Assembly: GCA_027596075.1 (NCBI GenBank)
Contig: JADGJC010000083.1
Span: 78,984-142,983 of the forward strand
Length of the DNA stretch: 64,000 bases
DNA from: Rhizophlyctis rosea
Lineage: Eukaryota > Chytridiomycota > Chytridiomycetes > Rhizophlyctidales > Rhizophlyctidaceae
Reading direction: 5' to 3'
Shown here: positions 1 through 31,192 of the stretch, in pieces
How the letters are laid out: each line of letters opens with the position of its first letter
How positions within the stretch are numbered: position 1 is the stretch's first letter
Translations under genes and position numbers: made by a program
Notes under the pieces: generated by a model
Databases searched by the model: none
What the model was told of the DNA's origin: nothing
The model's input: only the letters and a program-made list of their open reading frames with translations

Positions 1-3000
1 ACCACTGGCAACATCTTCCTCTTCCTCTTCCTCTTCCTCGTCCATGAATGCGGGACTCATATTCTGCGGCACGGCGCGATCAATGGGAGAGCGAGGTGTA
101 AATCCTTCGATATCAAGATCGCCCTTCGCAACAAGGAGAAGTCGTATGAGTTGATGCCTGTGAACATAATACCTATGCATATACATTGCAAATACCTCTT
201 GGCTAATCGACCGACCGGCCTTCCGTTTTGTACCAGTCGTAGTTGGTGTAGTAATGGGCGAGTACGACGGTGCTTTGATGGATCCTGCTTGAGAATCGGC
301 CGGGCTCATAGGCCGATATGACGTGCTTGCAAGGAAAGGGTTCAATGATTCACCGTCAAAGGCAAGATCTGATTCTGAGTGATAATCACATTCAGTGAAA
401 CCGCAAGCGATGCCTCCAAAAATTGTGACATACCTGAGAGGAAGTCCTGCGGACGGATGGCAACGGGCACAGCTGCCGGATGTTCGTACCAGTCCGACAC
501 AAGTCCGTGCGCCCTCGCTCTGATCCGGAACCGATATTCTGCAGTGTACGAGTTGTTCTCTTCCCCTCGCTTCCGCTTATTTGTGTGGCGCCAGTCTTGC
601 AGCCAGCCCTGCCGACTTGTTTGTGCAGCAGCAACTTCTCGATGAACCTCCGACATGACTTTGCCAAACCGCCGACTGTTCCCCACCCAGATCTGCTTCC
701 AACCCGGGACATCGTCTGCACCGGAGGACTCCATCGACCCATTAGATGCCGATTTTGTCTCGCCGTGACCGTATGTGGACGATGAATTGTAAGGCTCTTG
801 CGGCGAATTGTTGACCGAGATTACCAATGCATCTTGTTGCTTCCGACGCTTGATCACCCGCTCCGAATTTTCCTTCACACCTCCCTCTTTTGAGAAATGA
901 CAGGCGGCCTGAACTTCGAAGAACACTCCCTCCTGAGCGTCATGCTCCCATTCAAAACAAAGGCATCCGCTAGATGGGCCCGACGTGGAGTTCGCCACGA
1001 ATTCTGATCCGCCGAACTCCTTAGGAATGTAGGGCACAACGACGGCGTTCGTAGAAGTGGGCGCACGGGGCGATGCTAAATCACACAACGTTAGTTGTTG
1101 GTAGAAATGAATGACCTTTTCAAGCTCAATTACCATGAGGGACGATGATCTCGTTGCCATGTTGGAACGCTTCCTGAGCAGAACTTTCCGCAGCACCATT
1201 GAATGCCACCAACCTAACAGTGTATTCTTCGTCGGCCACCATGGCAATGCGTTGTTCGGACGACTCGAAGTCTGTCAACGTTATTTCCATATCCGATCCC
1301 TTATATGCAAGGTCCCAGGCGGTCTGGTCGGCCCCATTTTTCCTCACGTACACTCGGTATTGCCGCCAACCGTCCCAGGATTGCGCATCACTCCATGCCA
1401 ATTTCATTGGAATTCCAGGGGAAAGTATCAATAAAGGCCCGGGTGATAACGGAGGACCAACATCCAACCGCCATTGATCGCCCAAGGTGGTCTTGCCGCT
1501 TGTATCGTATATGACACCCCCGAAAATGTACATGACATGATCCAGCTGCGATGGCGCGGGTTAGGTCCCATGCATGGTCCCATGCATGCCTCACTTCACC
1601 AAGGAAGCATACCTGACATGCGCCGAAGTTTGCCCGTTCCAAGGGATGCGGTCCTTCAGCTGGCGCTTCAATCATGTTCCATTTCCATGAATCTTTTCAT
1701 ACGAGTCAGAGAGTCGGTTGCAAATGAGATGGAGTTTATCGCTTACCAAGATCCAAAGTGTATAAATCGTCGGTCGTTCTGAAGATCTTCAAGCCCTCCA
1801 TTTCGGCCGCCGTTGCAAAGGAGTGTAGTTCGTACGCGTCGTCCCAAAGCTCGGCCTCCTTTCGCACTACCACTCCCCCGAAAATGTACAACTTTTGATT
1901 GACCAGGCATGCCGTATGCAGAGATCGTCCGCTGGGCTGGATTCCGCTGATTTTAGGGTGTACCCATTGCATGCCATCTACAAGTTCGTTTGAATACCGA
2001 ATCAGCCCGACGCTATTATTGCAATGCACATACCCAGATCAAGCACCGCGACATCGTTCAACCTCCCATATTCAGGCGGCTTCCGCCAATCATCATTCAT
2101 GCCCCCGAAAATCACAATCTTGCTCTCTTTGCCTGACTTCCCACGCCACAAGTCGGCAGAATGGGACTCGCGCGGGGTTGGCGGCTTGCCTTTGACAGCA
2201 AGCGTTTCCCATCGGCCGCGTCGAATGTTGAACAAATACGTATCATTCAAAGTCTTTCGGTTGGGTGTTATTCCTCCAAACAGGATGAGTGCCGGCCCCG
2301 TCCGCCAATCAGGTATGTAAGTCAAGCTGGCCCCCAACCGTGGGCCCAGTTGAACACCGTGTTGTAAAAGAATGTGCAGTGTTCGTGTTGGAGCATTGAA
2401 GCGTGCCAGCTGTTAAATGAGAGGTATATTAAGATGCGAAGGCGCTTTGTCATACATTCATGTATTTCATACCGAATTCGAGATCTGGAGATGACACTCA
2501 TCATTATCGGAGACTCCACCGAAAATGTAAATATCTTCTCCGGCAGCTGCGATAGACGGATGAGCGGCGACGATTGTTTGTTGAACAAGCTGAGCATCAT
2601 GTAGGTTGGATTCATTCCCACGAACGTCAATCACTTTAACTTGCAGTTCACTCCAGTGCGAAGTCTCTGCGGAAAAATGTTACATCGATTGACAGGTTGA
2701 TGAAAAAGTGCATGCGCATACTTGGATCAAATGAATATACATCATGCAGGATCGTATGGTCGGATCCAAAGAGCACGATGACTTCAACCACTTCTTCCGA
2801 ATTTGCGCTTGCTGAAGTCGGTCCGGGTACATTCGACGTTGCCCCCTCATCGATGCCAGTGGTGACGGGGGAGTCTCCGTTTTGCTGTAAGCGAGAACGT
2901 GGGTACCGCACGAGAGCAACGGCATGGCCATAGCGTTTTCTTGGCACATCTCCGTTCCCGTTGACTTCCCGCCAACAATTTGACTCTGCAAGAGATGTGT

Positions 3001-3022
3001 CCGCTTCTGTAGTTGGTCCCAT
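1..3022 (-). CDS. HCF-1-like kelch / fibronectin III protein (3' partial)
   Basis: Eight exons join in frame to 870 visible residues: 3022-2722, 2666-2473, 2409-2034, 1977-1747, 1692-1613, 1545-1134, 1075-434 and 374 to the left edge. An in-frame stop lies upstream of the ATG at 3022 with no other ATG between, which fixes the start. About the first 410 residues are kelch blades; GG motifs such as IFGG and LFGG and the WRE..G..P..RYGHA opening recur. Fibronectin III-like segments follow (about 410-545 and up to about 745), with typical YRVYV and YRFRIRARA strands. The visible end becomes basic then acidic (a run of seven Glu). Kelch propeller plus FnIII is the architecture of host cell factor 1, a chromatin-bound scaffold for histone-modifying complexes; in that family the FnIII pair is near the C-terminus. 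Function by homology is inferred; a generic kelch protein is the alternative. Confidence 0.75.
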
Positions 3023-3602: not shown

Positions 3603-4262
3603 TTACACAGGTGGTGACTCTTCAGTTTGTGTTGGCAACGGCTCGGAGGTCTTACGACCATGCTGTGGCCAACGCAGAGAAGACATAGATGGAGGTGGAC
3701 TGGATGGTGAAGCTTCCTGATGGGCAAGGGCTGGAGAGTTGTCAGCAGCCCATTCTACATTCATAAAGTAACAACATAACATTATTTAAGCCTTACCGAT
3801 GCCATATGACGGCATCTCACAGAAGAGAGAGAAAGGCACGCTGGCATCCTGACGAGGGCTGCTACTTGACAGGTAGGTAACATACATTGTTTATCACATG
3901 GCTCTTTGCATAAAAGCCTGAATATTGACCATTCGAAATGACACGTGGCTGTTAAAAACTTACCTGTCAAGCGAGTTGGCTCTACTGAACTTATTTCTGC
4001 TGCTATTCTCCCATGATTGAGGTCTAAAATAGTCGCTGTCATCAGGAGATTCACTCAGCGGGGATGTGACGGGTGAGATGGGGCCGTCTCGTGCATTTTG
4101 AATGAAAGATCTTGTTCGCAGTCGCATAGGGTTAACCGGCGAGGAGCCCAAAGATGACGGGGGAGAGGAAGTAATTTGATTGAGGGAGGAGCGACGGTGC
4201 AATGTGTAAACCGCGGCCGCTCCTGCGACCGTTGCTGATGTTATGATAATTGGTGTTGACAT
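3603..4262 (-). CDS. small N-terminally anchored membrane protein, unknown
   Basis: Proposed exons 4262-3964, 3858-3797 and 3754-3603 give 170 residues and close exactly in frame. The N-terminus starts MSTPIIITSATVAGAAAVYT, a single hydrophobic segment followed by HRR, so the protein probably sits in a membrane with a long hydrophilic tail. The tail is Ser/Pro-rich (SSPPSSLGSSP, SPSSPPPS), likely disordered and phosphorylated. The second intron is only 42 nt, shorter than its neighbours, so the 3' half of the model is less certain. I do not recognise a family. The start is the first ATG; the frame is open slightly further upstream but without ATG. Confidence 0.45.
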
Positions 4263-4764
4263 GTTGAAATGATGTGGACACAACGGATGGAGTTCGATGC
4301 TGGATAACTCTAACCAGGCGGAGAGGTGGGAGTCCTTGCAAAGTTTTTATAGTAATTTTTTTTCATCAAGAAATCCCTTGATATGGTTGGGAACGAAAGT
4401 GAGACAGGGCGATAAGGGGCAGGAATGGGGAGGCAGGGAAGCCGCCTGCACGTCAGGCGACACCCCCTTTCGCCATCACGACGCGAGATGCGCATTGCAT
4501 TGGTTCGACTTGGCGGGCCAAGGGCCCAGTAAACAGGGGCACAACGCCAATCGCGTCAAATCAGGGTCCGAACTTCCGCGTTGGCCAAGCCACTCCCGAT
4601 TTGAGCGATCAGCCACAGCAAGCCTCACTTCCTGTCCGTAAGGTTCGGACGTGGGGTCGGTGCTATTTTTGACCCTTCCACCACAATTGTCCTGCAAATC
4701 TTCCAACTCCGTTTTCCCGCGCTCCCTACTCTCTTCTCTTGATGTGGATCTACTCAAAAGCAAA
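4263..4764. promoter_or_regulatory. divergent intergenic region
   Basis: About 500 bp separate the small membrane protein (minus) from TXNL4B (plus), so it probably holds both promoters. No clear TATA box or other element is recognised. Confidence 0.4.
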
Positions 4765-5415
4765 ATGAGCTACATCCTCCCCTCCCTCAGCACAAAACAA
4801 GACATCGACAACGCAATCCGCCAAACCCAAGACCGCGTCGTAGTCCTCCGCTTCGGCCGCGCAACCGACACAGCATGCATGCAACAAGACCACACCGTAC
4901 GCCTGACCTCCAAAATTCTTTCCCGTAACCCAATAGCAAAGGATAACCAAAAACGTTTTTCATCCACCAGCTCTCCAAAGCCCACGAAGAACTTCGTAAA
5001 ATGGCCGCAATATGGACGGTTGAAGTAGACTCCGTCCAAGAATACCCTCGCTACTTCGATATCTCCCTCATCCCCGCTACCATCTTTTTCTTCAACGCCC
5101 AGCACATGAAAGTGGACTACGGGTATGCTTAATCCCTTCATTCACTATAGCTCCCCTCTGGGGAACGCCCAGTCACTAATGCCTCCTACTATCACCATGG
5201 ATCATCTAACCTCTGCATTGATACTTATTACCCGGCACACCCACATCAGCACTCCAGACCACACAAAATGGATCGGCGCCTTCGCATCAAAACAAGACTT
5301 CATCGACCTAGTTGAAGTCATCTACCGCGGCGCAATGCGAGGCAAACTGATCGTCACATGTCCCATCGACAAAGACCGAATACCCAAGTACCAGCTAATA
5401 TACCAAGACATCTGA
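4765..5415 (+). CDS. TXNL4B: TXNL4B / Dim1-like spliceosomal thioredoxin-fold protein
   Basis: Three exons (4765-4896, 4971-5122, 5250-5415) encode 149 residues, the same length as animal TXNL4B. The start [15 protein letters not shown], the block [20 protein letters not shown], the segment [20 protein letters not shown] and the C-terminal YQLIYQDI match TXNL4B rather than its paralogue TXNL4A/Dim1, which ends differently. The family has a thioredoxin fold without the redox CxxC pair; none is present here. TXNL4B acts in pre-mRNA splicing and binds the U5 factor PRPF6. Introns are 74 and 127 nt and each keeps phase. It is a single-copy housekeeping gene, and its presence argues against a budding yeast. 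Confidence 0.93.
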
Positions 5416-5608
5416 AGACAGACAACGGTCAGCGTTCCGCAGCCCTTCCCACTTTGCCGACACCTGTCACAAACTCATAGAAGGTATGTCCATCTACATA
5501 ACATCCCAGCCCATGCAACAGCACCTCATGTATTGTATACACCTCCCACCAGCCCGGAGCAGCAAAAAAGCAGCAAAAATGCAAATATGTACATATGGAA
5601 AATCACCG

Positions 5609-24933: not shown

Positions 24934-25039
24934 AAGTATGTTGTTTGAGTTCAAAAGATTTACTCCGAGAAAGGACGAGAAAACAAGGCAAAGCAATTGT
25001 GGGAAAGCGAAGGGAAAGTGGGGTTTTGGACGCGTCGAA

Positions 25040-26026
25040 ATGACTCGCGCGCAGCCCTGTCCAAAATCTGTTTTGAACCCCACTTCAGCAACTTTATTCT
25101 GCCTTCACTTTCCCACATCACTTATCGCCAATCTCACGAAAGGCCAAGAAGAAAAAAGACAACACCGAAACGCCTGCCGTTCAATCCAAAACCCTTTCTA
25201 TGCCTTGTACAAGCGACCTGATGTGATTGCTCGTCGCAGGCCACAGAGTGGCATCTATTCCATATCGGACGTCTTTGAAGTCGTCTACGAGAGATGGGGC
25301 ACGGGCGACGGTATTACTCAGACAGTCAACAGGCCAGGAATCATATGCGGCCATTGGGTAACGGAGTGGGAGAAGGGCACGGGCGATGTGACCATCATAA
25401 CATTAGATAATAGCATCTCCCAATCCGCGAAGCGCACGCGTATCCGCCCAAACCCCGCTTTCTTCGACATCAACGAGACTGCCTTGGCGTACACCGTTTA
25501 TGTTCCAGAACCTGAGGCTCCCTATCGCGCTCTACTTAACGTTGTACGTCTCGTTGACGACACGCAGATGGCCTCTCATGTTCTCCCCGATGCGTCAAAA
25601 TGCCGCCACCTTACCGTCACCCGCCTCAACGTTCTGCTACATTACGGCACGGAATGTGAGGTTTTTGATCTCAAACTGACTTCTTCCTACAACCTGCCAC
25701 TTCTCAGCGACCTTTTCGGGCTTGATCGCCGCCATCCTCATGATTGGCAGTTTAATGACTGGTTGGGAATTCACAATCCGACTCGGAGAGCCTGGGGAAC
25801 TGCCGATGCCGGTCTACATCTACTGGACCCGAAAACCAGAACACGTCAATTCTTCACACCCTTGGGCCGCTGTTTTTACAATGATGGGCGTGCTTCGCCG
25901 GAGGGTCCGTATGACGATGGATATTGTTTCACCACAATTGAATATCCTGTCGATGAGGCGGGGAGCAGGACGGGAGCAGGGGGCCATTTACGGCATTATT
26001 GGCGGTGGTTGGAACGGGTTTCCTAA
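25040..26026 (+). CDS. unknown protein, paralogue A of an inverted pair
   Basis: This is an uninterrupted frame of 328 residues from the ATG at 25040; it stays open further upstream but then overlaps the casein kinase gene antisense. From about residue 60 on it matches the minus-strand copy at 27253-27990: ICGHW/ICGHK, DINET, RLNVLLHYG versus RINILLLFS, LDPKTRTRQF, TTIEYPVDEAGSRTGAGG and HYWRW are shared. The repeated beta-strand-like pattern with Trp and His recalls the C-terminal propeller region of fungal F-box proteins, but no F-box is visible in front. The first ~60 residues have no counterpart in copy B and are doubtful. No family is recognised with confidence. Its 3' end is close to a Fanzor remnant. 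Confidence 0.55.
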   Translation: MTRAQPCPKSVLNPTSATLFCLHFPTSLIANLTKGQEEKRQHRNACRSIQNPFYALYKRPDVIARRRPQSGIYSISDVFEVVYERWGTGDGITQTVNRPGIICGHWVTEWEKGTGDVTIITLDNSISQSAKRTRIRPNPAFFDINETALAYTVYVPEPEAPYRALLNVVRLVDDTQMASHVLPDASKCRHLTVTRLNVLLHYGTECEVFDLKLTSSYNLPLLSDLFGLDRRHPHDWQFNDWLGIHNPTRRAWGTADAGLHLLDPKTRTRQFFTPLGRCFYNDGRASPEGPYDDGYCFTTIEYPVDEAGSRTGAGGHLRHYWRWLERVS

Positions 26027-26166
26027 AGTGATGCGGCATTCTGCAGGTTACGGGAGTTGGATATAAAGTTGCGTCATCTAGATAGCTGTACCCTTCTTCA
26101 AGCCGAGATATTTAAGGTAGAAAGTGATGCATGAGTCTGAAGTTCATATAATGTCGTATGTGAGAA

Positions 26167-26484
26167 TGTATTTTCTACACACCCCTCTCCGGGGTTATGC
26201 ATACGAATCAGTATGCCAGAGTAAATTACAGTGCTCGTGCTACCTAATGAGCGGAGAGTATAGACTAGACATATCTAAACTATACAATGTGCAACTGAAA
26301 TCTGAGGGGAACGCCGATGACAGACGCAATGACAGAAAGACGGGGTACGTATTTTACAGGAAGATGGGGAATGCAGGTATTCAACGGGAAGGCTCGGCCC
26401 TCATAAACTCGTCGTCTGCAGTTCCGCCCAGTATTCTGTCGGGGGCTCATACTTGTACTCGTTGGGTGGTGGCAAGTTCCATTC
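26167..26484 (-). mobile_element. 3'-end remnant of a Fanzor element
   Basis: Read on the minus strand, this segment repeats the last ~85 coding bases of the Fanzor-like gene at 28123-29491 through the same stop codon, then its non-coding tail. It ends at the same GTGTGTAGAAAATACA. The coding part differs at only about two positions (one silent, one Asp/Asn). Relative to the right copy it carries about 75 extra bases between stop codon and tail (roughly 26313-26385). Everything 5' of GAATGGAACTTGCC is missing, so it is a dead 3' fragment. Together the two copies form a widely spaced inverted repeat. Confidence 0.85.
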
Positions 26485-27252
26485 TGCAGTAGTTGGAGAG
26501 CGCGTCCGGCTGATCATGAGGGACTCGTAGTCAGGGGAGACAACCGTCGGGAGACAACCGTCAACTTTGAGCACCTCCCTGTAGCTGAGCCATTGCGTTC
26601 GTCATGCTGCCGGGAGCCACTAACTTCTACATGCGTCCACGACTCTGTGCTCCTCTTTTCATTTTCGTATTGGTTCCCGGAGCATTTTCACTTTTTCTTT
26701 TCTTTCCAGATTCATTTAGATGGCAGCTCTTGTTGGTATCCGCAAACAGAGCAGCTAGCTGGCTCCGGTCCCTTGGGGGAATCGCATCCTTGTTGAAGAC
26801 GCATGGATGCGCGGGAGGGTTCGAATCCCTCTCGGAGTCATATTGTGATATGGCGTTTGATTGTTTCAATAATATGCGAACGCTTCTCCATTCTCACTTT
26901 TTGTTTTCCAATGTAGTGCTGTGGCTGTGATGGAAGGGAAGTTCAGGGACGTGTATCGGTCGTTGGGTGGATCAGGGTGGAACATATGAATATTGACGAG
27001 AGATCGAGGTTTTCATAGACCGGACCTTGATGTTTGGCCGCAAAAGTCAAGAGGAATTGGGTCGACCAATGGAAGTGTTGGGATTTTGAAAGCAAGGGGA
27101 TCGAACATCTTTTCATCTACAAGTCCCGTATTCATTGTCCCATATGATACATAGGCACCAATCAGGCTATTGCCCGACGAAAACTGAGCAATGCATCGTG
27201 CTGAACCACACTATTTTGTAATTGACTCCTATGATATAACAGTCCTAAAGTC
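26485..27252. other. non-coding stretch between remnant and pseudogene
   Basis: No supported gene is seen. A direct repeat gggagacaaccgtc occurs twice at about 26534 and 26549, and a tRNA-like segment lies at 26762-26839. A short plus-strand hydrophobic frame (26604-26930) overlaps the tRNA-like segment and is judged fortuitous. Confidence 0.45.
26762..26839 (+). tRNA. tRNA-like segment, degenerate
   Basis: A perfect T-arm (GAGGG, TTCGAAT, CCCTC) containing a consensus B box is followed by seven bases that pair with GCTCCGG at the 5' end, including two G-U pairs. CGCATCC...GGATGCG could form a long anticodon-like stem. A D-arm with normal GG is not found, no T-run terminator follows closely, and the discriminator would be C. 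It may be a tRNA pseudogene or a tRNA-derived SINE head rather than a working tRNA. Confidence 0.3.
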
Positions 27253-27990
27253 CTAACATACTTTTACGTCGTGACCCACCCACCGCCAATAATGCCCAAA
27301 CTGACCCCCCGCTCCTCTCCTGTTCCCCGCTTCATCAACAGGATACTCAATCGTTGTTAAGCAATACCCCGGCACTACCGATCTGCCTTCCCGCAACCGC
27401 TTCAGGCACTCAACAAATTGCCGGGTTCTGGTTTTCGGATCAAGGATCATCATATGAGTTTGCTGCCACACCATAATGATTGGCATTCTGCACCGCCATC
27501 CAGTCCAGAGGGTGCCAATCTGCTTCTGGGGAACCGATGATGTCGGAGAGCTTGTAGAGGAAGTTTGAGTGGAAGTCAAAGACCCAGCATTCTTTGCTGA
27601 ATAGGAGCAGGATGTTGATGCGGGTGAGATGAAGCTGATAACAGGTGGAAATGTCAGGTATGGGGTACGAGCTTAGGTGTGTTGCATCGGACAGACGGAC
27701 AAGGTTGAGTCGAGCCTTAAATGGTGATTCGGGTTCAGAGGTGAGGGCAACGTAAGCTAGGAAGGTTTCGTTGATGTCGCATAGGCCGTCGTGCAGGTGA
27801 AAGTGGTATGGTTTGAAATCATTGTCCAATGATAGGATGGTGGCGGTTTCATCGTCCTCCCCCCATTCTTGAAGCTTATGTCCACAGATAGTTCCCATCC
27901 AGCTTCCCTTAAGTTCGGCAATGATTTCACCGCTGTCAACGTCCTGACCAACGATTTTGTAGGTATCTGGCATGCGGCATGCGATGATAT
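27253..27990 (-). pseudogene. paralogue B of the 25040-26026 gene, frameshifted
   Basis: The minus strand from PNIIACR (about 27990) reads in one frame through ICGHK, LCDINETFLAY, ARLNLVRLSDA and DWMAVQNANHYGVAANS. It then needs a shift at about 27450 to continue as MMILDPKTRTRQF, TTIEYPVDEAGNRRGAGGQ and HYWRW. Alignment with copy A shows one base fewer between the conserved Trp/Gly region and LDPKTRTRQ, with no room for an intron. The first in-frame ATG is at 27973, inside the region of homology, and a stop lies seven codons before it. Thus the 5' end is also missing or unspliced. It abuts the 5'-truncated Fanzor about 130 bp away. Confidence 0.72.
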
Positions 27991-28122
27991 TGGGTCATTT
28001 GTAAGTGTAGTGTTGACCAAGCCAATGCTGGTTCTCCGCCAAGTGTGAACAGTGCTGCCTACATCTTCTCTTGATTTTGAAACCAACTCGCTCCCTTCCC
28101 ATCCTTACATCTTGGAAAACAG

Positions 28123-29491
28123 ATATGGAAGCATCATATCAACATCAACGAAAAGCGTACTTCGGCGTGACAGAAAGAGATACGTGTATCTTTCTCCACA
28201 ACAATATCTTTCCGCACTATGCTAGGTCGGTCGTCGTGTCTAGATCTCTTCATCGGTGAACATCGCATCCACCCGACTGACAGAAACTCATGCTCACAGT
28301 CTCAAAGAATACTATAACCGCAAAATCTTTTACAAAAATGGTTTCACCACACGCCAGCAGAACAAACGCTTCCTCACCATGACGGCACGCCATCTCATGC
28401 AGCTATCTCCGGTATGAGAGTCTACCTCTTTTCGCCAAATTGCCGATACTGAACATACAAATTGCAGAGATGGTGTCTCAACCCGGGACGCGCTCACAAA
28501 AAGCAGCTCAAGCGAGAACATTATTTGCCGTCATCGTATATTGATTCCAACTTCCTGTCAGGTCAGACACGACAACAGAGAAGGTCTGCGGAGGTTGGGG
28601 TGGATATGATAGAGTATAGGCGTTGGCACCCTCTGCCCAAAGAAGAGCAGCCCCGCCAAGGAGCGCTGTGGGCTTGGGGATGGGGAAACTATGCATGGAA
28701 CAAACCGTATCCTCCTGTGCCTAACAAGGTTGGTTAGAAGTTGTTTGCCCATTCTGTGGAGAGATCAGACACTAAACACATTGACAGGCATTGGCGAGGG
28801 AAATAGCAGTGCAAGGTGACACTGTCATCATGATGCCGGAACGAGGCACCACAAAAGGCCAGTGTACTTCAGCCGTGGCCGGCTACGAGTCGCAATTGGT
28901 CGGCCCACCGTTTGAGTTCCGTCCTCATCAACATGCCTTACATTACTTGGTGGCTAATCAGCTTCGATGTGATCACGCGTGAGTGATGTTCATGAATAAT
29001 TCTTAAGGTAATAACCATCATTCTGATACTATCTAATGCTCAATGCAGAAAGACAAAGCTTCGCCGGCACGGCGAACGTCAGAGACATTGCAAGGTGTTG
29101 CATTGCTGGGTCCCGGAAAATCCCCTTCGGAGTGACGACAACATTCCGCGCGGGGAATGGATTCGTACAAAAGATTGTGGCGAACAGGCTCCAAAGCGTA
29201 AGTGTCACTGCACCTTGGAGCAAAAAGCGCACATGTGTTGATCTCCATCTCGTTCCAGTCCTCAAAAACCATCGCCTATTGCTGTGCAAAGATGGTTGCA
29301 TGGCATTGTGCGCCAATCAGCCGGCCATCATAGGACGGGATCAGAATGCATCGGCACTGCTTAGGTACATGCTTGTCAACTGTTGCTGCACGAGGGGACA
29401 GCGTCCTGAATGGAACTTGCCCCCACCCGACGAGTACAAGTATGAGCCCCCGACAGAATACTGGGCGGAACTGCAGACGACGAGTTTATGA
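28123..29491 (+). CDS. Fanzor-like (eukaryotic TnpB) protein, 5'-truncated
   Basis: Six exons (28123-28255, 28300-28411, 28468-28728, 28788-28978, 29049-29197, 29259-29491) splice in frame to about 359 residues ending in TGA. C-terminal hallmarks of Fanzor/TnpB appear in order: LKEYYNRKIFY; a WGWGNYAW ... PNKALAREIA block; TTKGQC where TS-x-x-C is usual; a Cys-rich ribbon (RHCKVLHC, KDCGEQ, LLLCKDGC); RuvC-III GRDQNASALL; and a trailing RGQRPEW like the RPE tail of the family. The RuvC-I DxG region is not recognisable. The expected N-terminal half is absent, since sequence upstream belongs to pseudogene B. It is therefore probably an inactive copy. Fanzors are RNA-guided nucleases carried by eukaryotic transposons. 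The family call rests on motif order, not a search; an unrelated Cys-rich transposon protein is the alternative. Confidence 0.62.
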
Positions 29492-29659
29492 GGGCCGAGC
29501 CTTCCCGTCCGCATTCCCATCAGATTTCAGTTGCTCATTGTATAGTTTAGATATGTCTAGTCTATACTCTCCGCTCGTTAGGTAGCACGAGCAACTGTAA
29601 TTTACTCTGGCATACTCATTCGTATGCATAACCCCGGAGAGGGGTGTGTAGAAAATACA
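29492..29659 (+). ncRNA. candidate omega RNA / conserved 3' tail of Fanzor
   Basis: This non-coding tail is nearly identical in the inverted remnant. It can fold into three consecutive hairpins: GCTCG/CGAGC at 29573-29592, GCATAC/GTATGC at 29610-29627 and CCCC/GGGG at 29632-29644. In the other copy the stem of the second hairpin is unchanged while its loop differs. In known Fanzors the guide RNA scaffold comes from the element's end next to the nuclease gene, so this is the natural place for it. RNA expression is not shown. Confidence 0.35.
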
Positions 29660-29678
29660 CTACTTCTTGCGTGCGGGA

Positions 29679-29809
29679 GATGTGCAATTCCTCAGGTGTG
29701 GTAAGACGTGCATCACTCTGCTATTCCTCTGGTGCGGTAGACGTGCATCGCGCTGCTATTCCTCTAGTGCGGTAGACGTGCATCGCTCTGCTGTTCCCCA
29801 GGTGCGGAG
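29679..29809. repeat. 35-bp tandem repeat
   Basis: Three units beginning gacgtgcatc start at 29705, 29740 and 29775, exactly 35 bp apart, with a shorter degenerate unit before them. Each contains ctgctattcctct and ggtgcggta. The array begins 20 bp beyond the Fanzor 3' terminus. There are no variable spacers, so this is not a CRISPR array. Confidence 0.85.
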
Positions 29810-31192
29810 TGCAGGCGTCCGAATACCTGATAGCAACTGCAGTGAGTACGCGAAGCTGCACGTCCAAACGAGGTGGTGGGGATACTCACAGCTTTCGTTT
29901 GGATAAGATTGGGTTGAATAGTTGAGGTCCGGCAGAACGGCAGCTCTTGACCGGCACCATGAGAAAAAGAAAGAAAGTTCACCAGTCGAGATCCTTGAGC
30001 CGACCCGCTCGTGTTGAACGTGGTACGGAGCAAAAGAGAAGTCTGATGGTGGGTTTGATGAGAGTTTTGACGAGAGACACCTGCATGACGTTTAGATGCA
30101 TGATGTGTCATGAGTCATGTCAGCCGCGATCCGCAATTTTGTGGCCCCTGCGGGATGAGCTCAACATGGCTTAGACTGGTGGACTGTAACTTGGTTCTTT
30201 GGCCCGCAGAAAGCATACAGTGGGATCACCAAACTCAATGGTATCATGACATGTTTGTGTAGCAAGTCCATCTGCCCAAATTTCGGTAATGGTGTCAGCA
30301 GTGTAACCAAATTCGACCAATAAGATTCGACTGACCTGCCAGTCAGTAGCTTCCGAGTCTCTTCGGGCTTTTACGCAGGACTATTCACTGTGCAACTTAT
30401 GGCTGCGGAGTTGGCTTACTAGTCCAATTTGATGAGTGATTGATTGATCGGACCCAAAAAAGCTGCTCGGCCCATCGGTCGTGAGCGAGCTGTGTACACC
30501 GGCGAAGGTGGAAAACTGGAAAATTGAACATGCCCTTTCAATCGCACCTTGTTCACGGTATTGCTGGTCCTCCCCCTTACAACCTGCTAGCCAGCCAGCC
30601 AAACTTGCATCGCGGCGCACTACTTCGCTTCATTCGTGCCCAATAATATTCCACTAGTTTGAATAGTAGCAGTTCGGCATATGACGAGTGGGAGTGTATG
30701 TTATCACTTTCTAGCTCCTCTTGTAAGCTGAATATCTTTCACACGCGTTCAGTGTCCAGAGACTGGTTAGGTGTCGAGACGAACCCAGCTTCTATAGGTC
30801 GGTCCACACACTTTTGGTGGGCGTTGACACCTCGCTACCGCAGAAGATCCCTTCGAGATTGAACTTTCAACTCGTGTTTTCGCTCACTTGCAAAGTGCTT
30901 TGAGGGCTTGCGTCAACCCATTCCTGCGTGGCCCTCGGCTTTGACACGCGAGGTGGCCCAATTTTCCCACACTTCCAATACGTTCCTTACAAACTCATGT
31001 CCTTGGCGAAGTACCTATGAACCAGTAGTCATACTCCACATTCGTCAGAGCCCAAACACTGTTCCTTTTACTTCCACGGCGAGCCAAGCATTTCACACGC
31101 AAGCAGCTCACAGATCTGACCAGACTTCTCGTGTTGAGCCTGCAGTTCCTGCAGTTTCAGGTCCTGCACTTTTGTGTGTTGTCTATTGAACG
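29810..31192. other. long intergenic region
   Basis: About 1.4 kb without a supported gene. Short open frames on both strands lack domains. The last few hundred bases are probably the promoter and 5' leader of the next gene. Confidence 0.45.

Follow-up and report, generated by a model that had tools for sequence, protein, structure and literature searches.

On the explanation that we moderately favor, the window (the whole 64,000-nucleotide stretch of the Rhizophlyctis rosea genome analyzed here) carries a gene derived from Fanzor1 and belonging to a diverged family, situated on a mobile element and now reduced to its C-terminal half with RuvC-II, a zinc-ribbon region, and RuvC-III. The gene has an open spliced frame, shares its intron positions with a relative on another contig (C165), belongs to a family, bears the mark of past purifying selection, and is followed by a fixed 3' end with hairpins. 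Our confidence is strong for Fanzor descent and moderate for 5' truncation of the window copy.

The coding sequence (28125-29491, plus strand) consists of six exons totaling 1047 nt, which encode 348 amino acids followed by TGA with no internal stop, whereas the other two frames of the same spliced sequence contain 7 and 13. All five introns (56 to 74 nt) are GT-AG, and C165 has GT-AG at all 5 homologous positions. The ATG at 28125 is directly preceded by CAG, and C165 has the same placement. The features of the locus and its upstream side are as follows.

28125-28225, plus strand: exon 1, or the first surviving exon; its ATG is common to C165, and it contains GVTER
28300-28411, plus strand: exon 2, with a 61% identity piece in C165
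28468-28728, plus strand: exon 3, which ends with WGWGNY...PVPNK, the stretch preceding RuvC-II
28788-28978, plus strand: exon 4, with the RuvC-II-like PERGTTKGQC (Glu, then TT and Cys)
29049-29197, plus strand: exon 5, the Cys/His-rich region between RuvC-II and RuvC-III
29259-29491, plus strand: exon 6, with the second Cys pair, RuvC-III GRDQNAS, RGQRPEW, and the stop
29492-29658, plus strand: 3' noncoding element end with strong hairpins and a fixed right end at 29658; candidate omega RNA scaffold
26168-26484, minus strand: second right-end copy, 5' truncated, which holds the last Fanzor-like codons and ~66 nt absent from the main copy
27253-27994, minus strand: remains of an unrelated gene with a disturbed reading frame, a paralogue of 25337-26026 (plus strand), occupying part of the place expected for the N-terminal half

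The initial annotation had placed six exons in one frame and had read TTKGQC, a Cys-rich stretch, GRDQNAS, and RGQRPEW in this order, and our model agrees on both points. The continuous C-terminal frame likewise stands, but with 348 amino acids in the spliced model rather than the 359 residues counted earlier, and the end then given as 29659 is 1 base off the real boundary, 29658, the 3' end common to four copies.

We searched the genome (44.1 Mb, 634 contigs) for relatives of this gene. Exons 2 to 6 as the query (20 rows with E up to 10, the last rows being weak) identified the window itself (C617), C165, C463, C150, C603, C443, C566, and C175, plus a tail on C112, and the C150 copy as the query (21 rows) added C502 at an E of 0.0016; relatives are thus distributed over nine contigs, one of them weak. 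C165 is 56 to 62% identical in amino acids to the window copy in the three best-scoring pieces, and exons 1 to 3 of C165 matched only C165 itself and the window in the genome search (6 rows). The end of exon 3 is common to C150, C175, and the window. For C443, C603, and C566, the matches were confined to the C-terminal end; for C175, they lay in the middle and near RuvC-III, with stops inside the matched piece. C463 is cut off by the end of its contig, and C150 lies beside a run of N, which leaves the true extent of either unreadable. At least two apparent frameshifts were read from the sequence of C165.

Between the window and C165, pS was 0.77 (saturated) and pN was 0.19 over 235 codons, a hand-picked set of gap-free stretches whose choice lowers pN somewhat, and the resulting pN/pS was 0.24 (bootstrap, 0.19-0.31). 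The differences on codon positions 1, 2, and 3 numbered 58, 36, and 129, which, with the amino-acid identity to C165, indicates a coding signal beyond chance. Exon 1 alone gave a pN/pS of 0.16; nine further pairwise comparisons over 32 to 33 codons gave 0.00 for C603/C566 and 0.09 to 0.42 for the eight divergent pairs. With a ratio of 0.24 and saturated silent sites, the coding sequence spent a long time under purifying selection in the past; a comparison of two sequences does not tell whether this selection still acts on the window copy. The initial annotation had considered the family recently active. This is true of the 3' end, which was copied recently (94-99% identity), but the compared coding copies diverged long ago, with silent sites near saturation, except for the recent pair C603/C566 (100% identity in 33 codons; pS, 0.09).

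Sequence comparison makes Fanzor descent of the window family likely, through diverged signals, and it supports the view that the Fanzor signal sits in the paralogues more than in the window copy. The window protein matched 0 families among 24,736 Pfam models, had no relevant match in a PDB sequence search, and matched none of 362 protein-database candidates (preselected by length and shared words) at an E of 0.001; a query that joined several members of the family matched none of 4993 candidates at an E of 1. These two protein-database searches returned no relative outside the R. rosea genome. NCBIfam gave no match for the two paralogues scanned, the family profile from alignment A1 retrieved no Fanzor from the PDB, and viral contigs, when screened with the alignment of Fanzor1, gave 17 pattern matches with no relative among them. 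The lack of a Fanzor/TnpB hit, which had been named in advance as grounds for rejecting the assignment, is therefore literally true of the window copy in Pfam, the PDB, and the protein database; only the paralogues give subthreshold TNB matches. PF07282 (TNB) fell below the cutoff of 26.3 bits at the PERG..C residues of C150 (E, 0.39; 11.4 bits) and C463 (E, 0.16; 12.6 bits) in the scan of 24,736 models, and it was not found in the other four family proteins scanned (pieces of C603, C443, and C175, and the window). In A1, it appeared in 2 of 5 rows, with a best E of 0.028.

An alternative is that the gene is no Fanzor but encodes the protein of a different mobile element, its E..TT..C and RDxN having arisen by chance or convergence. 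The absence of significant hits in Pfam, the PDB, and the protein database, the degraded zinc knuckle, and the weak block scores of the window could be expected for such a protein, as could the fact that other Pfam models beat PF07282, namely, PF24179 (NTE_Ploop) in A1 (E of 0.0045 in one row) and NPHP3 in C150 (E of 0.11). However, TNB was the family named beforehand, so that Es of 0.39 and 0.16 among 24,736 models correspond to chances of the order of 1e-5 each, at the right residues, the two chances being nonindependent since C150 and C463 are paralogues. The ordered blocks of C150 and the RP that follows RuvC-III, which SpuFz1 and PpFz1 have too, also argue against this origin, which we consider quite improbable.

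A two-block score derived from Fanzor/TnpB proteins (14 blocks for RuvC-II, 13 for RuvC-III) chose the expected places in 4 of 4 proteins tried. The C150 score of 28.5 was reached by none of 8000 shuffles, while the window score of 7.8 was reached by 27 of 4000, the C165 score of 7.6 by 23 of 4000, and the C175 score of 6.4 by 10 of 8000; in these last three, the best shuffle tops the real score. The window score is composed of a negative RuvC-II part (-1.7) and a RuvC-III part of 9.5. With a Fanzor1 HMM of six sequences, the RuvC-III matches of the window and C150 were each equaled by 1 of 1000 shuffles, and C165 did not stand out (40 of 1000 as good). Alignment to Fanzor1 with hhalign joined C..C...RD.N...RP over 36 columns (P of 0.0017; probability, 15%). 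Both the HMM and hhalign aligned GRDQNAS, weakly, to wnRDvnaArn, consistent with the earlier assignment of the RuvC-III Asp to GRDQNA. The profile search that had been suggested thus found RuvC-III, weakly, in the window but not PF07282. The C-terminal tails are WNRD...RPEVFSR in SpuFz1, WNRD...RPPLFSR in PpFz1, and mostly RDKN...RPEWN in the window family.

According to excerpts of PMC10711439, the relocated RuvC-II glutamate of Fanzor/TnpB proteins precedes the first Cys of the zinc finger by six residues (E-x6-C). This spacing is exact in C150 (ERGTTKQC) and C463 (ERGSSKQC), as in Fanzor1, and one residue longer in the window (ERGTTKGQC). Excerpts of PMC3627910 give the signature [TS][TS]xx-C4 zinc finger-x(5,50)-RD; in the window, TT is kept, one Cys is left of the first CxxC, and the stretch from TT to RD spans 117 residues. 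The zinc knuckle initially seen at TTKGQC is degraded to this one Cys. The fungal Fanzor1 proteins compared (SpuFz1, 8gkh; Parasitella PpFz1, 9cf0; and C391 of this genome) share with the family the order E..[TS][TS]..C, second Cys pair, RDxN, and RP tail. Unlike Fanzor1, the window copy has no N-terminal half that we could find, no DPG, a single Cys in the first CxxC, and the long TT-to-RD spacing, and it lies beyond profile detection. The kinship proposed for the C-terminal half is thus supported by the paralogues (subthreshold PF07282, ordered blocks, and MAFFT alignment) but finds no Pfam match in the window copy itself, and we do not claim full Fanzor/TnpB membership, since there is neither a C4 finger nor a profile match above the cutoff.

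The same genome contains clear Fanzor/TnpB genes, with eight PF07282 places, 0 of 8 at loci of the window family. A Fanzor1 gene with GVDPG on C391 (C391:4500-11000, L034, 2857-4293) shows ~50% identity along the full length of the query to a chytrid protein, from Borealophlyctis nickersoniae, and matches SpuFz1 at an E of 7.4e-5; one in-frame stop or short intron lies between its two reading frames. C21 (C21:102000-110000, L028, ~3649-5469) carries an IS607-type pair of a MerR-like/resolvase serine recombinase (PF00239; E, 7.1e-16) and a TnpB/Fanzor2-like frame (PF07282; E, 1.8e-16), and C270 (L030) carries a second serine recombinase and TnpB/Fanzor2-like pair.

The RuvC-I DPG is expected ~120 to 160 residues before the glutamate (excerpts of PMC10711439). 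GVTER of exon 1, present in the window and C165, lies at a fitting distance of 159 residues, and MAFFT placed it on GVDPG of Fanzor1. In RuvC-I block scoring, GVTER was the best place in C165, but 531 of 5000 stretch shuffles were as good; in the window, it came third in the stretch and fifth overall, and the best place, which lies elsewhere, was equaled by 860 of 5000 shuffles. MAFFT likewise pairs WGWGNY with GNAKF, a strand of Fanzor1, for which the block score gives no support, and neither RuvC-I nor G-N strand blocks rose above chance in block scoring. If GVTER is RuvC-I, its aspartate would have been lost before the window and C165 split, because both carry GVTER; if it is not, RuvC-I would have lain in exons no longer seen. 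An extra domain inside RuvC is possible, as with the FRI of PpFz1, about 100 residues long (excerpts of PMC11423790). NPGR in exon 3 was ruled out as RuvC-I, as C165 has NPNR and the motif is only ~100 residues before the glutamate. On C175 (~2960-3005; locus L042), an open stretch ending with SLDLNTLVRID ahead of the RuvC-II exon is a possible, much decayed trace of the RuvC-I strand.

An N-terminal WED/REC half was not recognized upstream in the window, C165, C175, C150 (~0.7 kb readable), C443, or C603. N-terminal halves of Fanzor/TnpB proteins are highly variable, so that outside the window this absence weighs little. Searching four Fanzor1 proteins against six upstream stretches with tblastn gave chance-level matches only (best E, 0.22), and upstream reading frames of C165 were rejected as N-terminal exons, only C165 itself being matched (5 rows). 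The genome-wide search for a full-length copy, which the initial annotation had recommended, thus yielded relatives on nine contigs but no recognizable N-terminal half in the loci examined. In the window, the earlier statement that the half is missing is supported: the upstream side holds the minus-strand gene remains up to ~27895 and then the second right-end copy. That the upstream site belongs to another disrupted gene is likewise correct, given the disturbed frame at 27253-27994. This gene and its plus-strand paralogue at 25337-26026 form an inverted pair, 48 to 77% identical in pieces (27277-27895 aligning in pieces to 25337-26011), and neither has a Pfam match. Insertion of the element into the minus-strand gene was rejected, as nothing beyond 29659 could be read convincingly as the rest of that gene.

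The shared ATG and CAG of the window and C165 also fit a genuinely short protein. Such a protein, which we regard as somewhat unlikely, would be a RuvC-half derivative of Fanzor that lacks the guide-binding half, begins with the ATG common to both loci, and is kept by selection for another role, conceivably to bind DNA or RNA or to interfere with Fanzors of full length. It would be in keeping with the intact frame, the pN/pS of 0.24, the C165-only matches of the upstream frames in C165, and the tblastx comparison of the DNA upstream of the two starts, in the window and C165, which gave nothing convincing (best E, 0.12). However, silent sites are saturated, so noncoding DNA would not align anyway, and upstream exons kept in C165 and lost in the window would give the same picture. 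In addition, the CAG before the start resembles an intron end, so that exons may have preceded it, and C165 has at least two apparent frameshifts.

It is also conceivable, though unlikely, that the locus is a simple dead relic, functionless since its origin. The N-terminal half was not found, C443, C603, and C566 were matched in C-terminal pieces only (C150, beside a run of N, and C463, at a contig end, are left out of this count), and C175 stops within its matched piece. On the other hand, the window copy has no stop in 348 codons and five intact introns, and selection is seen along its coding sequence, although with only two sequences this selection is not datable on the window branch. The copy had initially been called dead; its frame and splice sites are unbroken and do not show this.

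The Fanzor1-derived, 5'-truncated gene that we favor would be part of an element whose right end can be followed in the genome. The 3' noncoding end recurs at three other places, inverted at 26168-26484 and twice on C112, in pieces 94 to 99% identical. The end base is identical in all 4 copies (29658 in the main copy), while the 5' ends differ; a 23-base end pattern occurs exactly at 4 places, with none at 1 to 3 mismatches and 0 in a reversed-pattern control. The last codons are kept in the inverted window copy and in one C112 copy. The 222-nt copy at C112:89154-89375 lies between a direct repeat of 8 to 10 nt, with extra bases at its 5' end; in the sequence searched, no direct repeat flanks the other three (1 of 4 overall). 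The 5' part of this copy may be captured DNA, and its start (GTATTTGGCGGG...) was rejected as the left end of the family, since its first 25 bases occur nowhere else at up to 3 mismatches. The ends at 26168 (minus strand) and 29658 (plus strand) point outward but were also rejected as inverted-repeat ends of one insertion: the flanking bases do not repeat, and the two are treated as separate copies. Beside the second C112 copy lies a 31-nt right-end remnant with a shortened hairpin (C112 ~96510-96595; L027 8511-8596), which adjoins a direct repeat of ~60 nt with its units 171 nt apart.

As RNA, 29500-29659 reaches a folding energy of -44.9 kcal/mol (z, -3.3), with 0 of 200 shuffles as good; for 29440-29659, z was -2.3, and 5 of 200 were as good. 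The right-end copies are too alike for covariation, and in 25000-31000 Rfam gave no family above threshold and one subthreshold tRNA-like match elsewhere than at the right end. With weak to moderate confidence, we propose the 3' end as a candidate omega RNA scaffold; a fixed end followed by locus-specific DNA would fit the look of a guide boundary.

Excerpts of PMC3627910 (Bao and Jurka) describe CRe-1, CRe-2, and CRe-3, which are Chlamydomonas Fanzor1 elements that move in the manner of Helitron2, with a fixed 3' end, 5' truncation, and TSDs of ~7 to 19 bp. By that account, they share with the window element the fixed 3' end with a subterminal hairpin and the 5'-truncated copies, and the 8- to 10-nt direct repeat of C112:89154-89375, with its extra 5' bases, is CRe-like. 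In contrast to CRe-1 to -3, only four right-end copies were matched here, and the RepHel replicase (PF14214) had 0 matches in the genome, control genomes being equally silent. The guide RNA of SpuFz1 comes from the 3' end, with 14 to 15 nt of variable sequence past the conserved part, and Spu-1 has many "ghost" elements without the Fanzor gene (excerpts of PMC10432273, Saito and colleagues). From what is described there, ghost Spu-1 elements and copies of the right end of the window element both keep the 3' end without the gene, with a structured end and then locus-specific sequence, whereas Spu-1 has 30-nt inverted repeats and none are established for the window element.

In the favored scenario, the ancestral protein would have taken its guide scaffold from RNA encoded at the 3' end of its own element (29492-29658), flanking DNA would have supplied the guide, and matching DNA would have been cut through the RuvC site, which helps elements of this kind to persist or spread. 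The window copy most likely would have lost its N-terminal, guide-binding exons when it was copied or rearranged, recently enough that no stop or frameshift arose. All four right-end copies keep the 3' end and vary at the 5' end.

We consider it highly unlikely that the gene represents a eukaryotic half-Fanzor, i.e., a protein with only the RuvC/zinc-ribbon half, whose RuvC-I Asp would have changed to Thr (GVDPG to GVTER) before the window/C165 split and which selection would have kept working without cutting, for example, by binding guide RNA or target DNA, like TldR in bacteria. TldRs are nuclease-dead TnpB repressors of bacteria. If GVTER is a former RuvC-I, the likeness would consist of loss of a RuvC residue with selection on the protein; unlike TldR, the window protein keeps the Glu and the RuvC-III Asp and is without the N-terminal half. 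Among the matches listed on Fanzor/eukaryotic TnpB, mostly without subscription literature, no title names a half-Fanzor or a catalytically dead Fanzor. Were this true, a Fanzor-derived gene would have been selected without its guide-binding half or RuvC-I, which would bear on whether eukaryotes put such nucleases to other uses; if the window holds only a 5'-truncated copy, it would be a further case of one-ended spread of a Fanzor element. The Fanzor survey described in excerpts of PMC10432273 demands filled catalytic columns, and surveys needing these or a profile hit could miss the window family.

Two minor observations concern the surroundings. A tRNA-like stretch at 26761-26839 (plus strand) best matches tRNA-Sec at 22.3 bits (cutoff, 47) with the T arm paired; ARAGORN found nothing there at its usual threshold and low-score candidates at a lowered one, and the stretch is probably a decayed long-arm tRNA. 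Three 35-bp tandem units, 86 to 91% identical to the first, occupy 29704-29808, starting ~45 bp past the right end.
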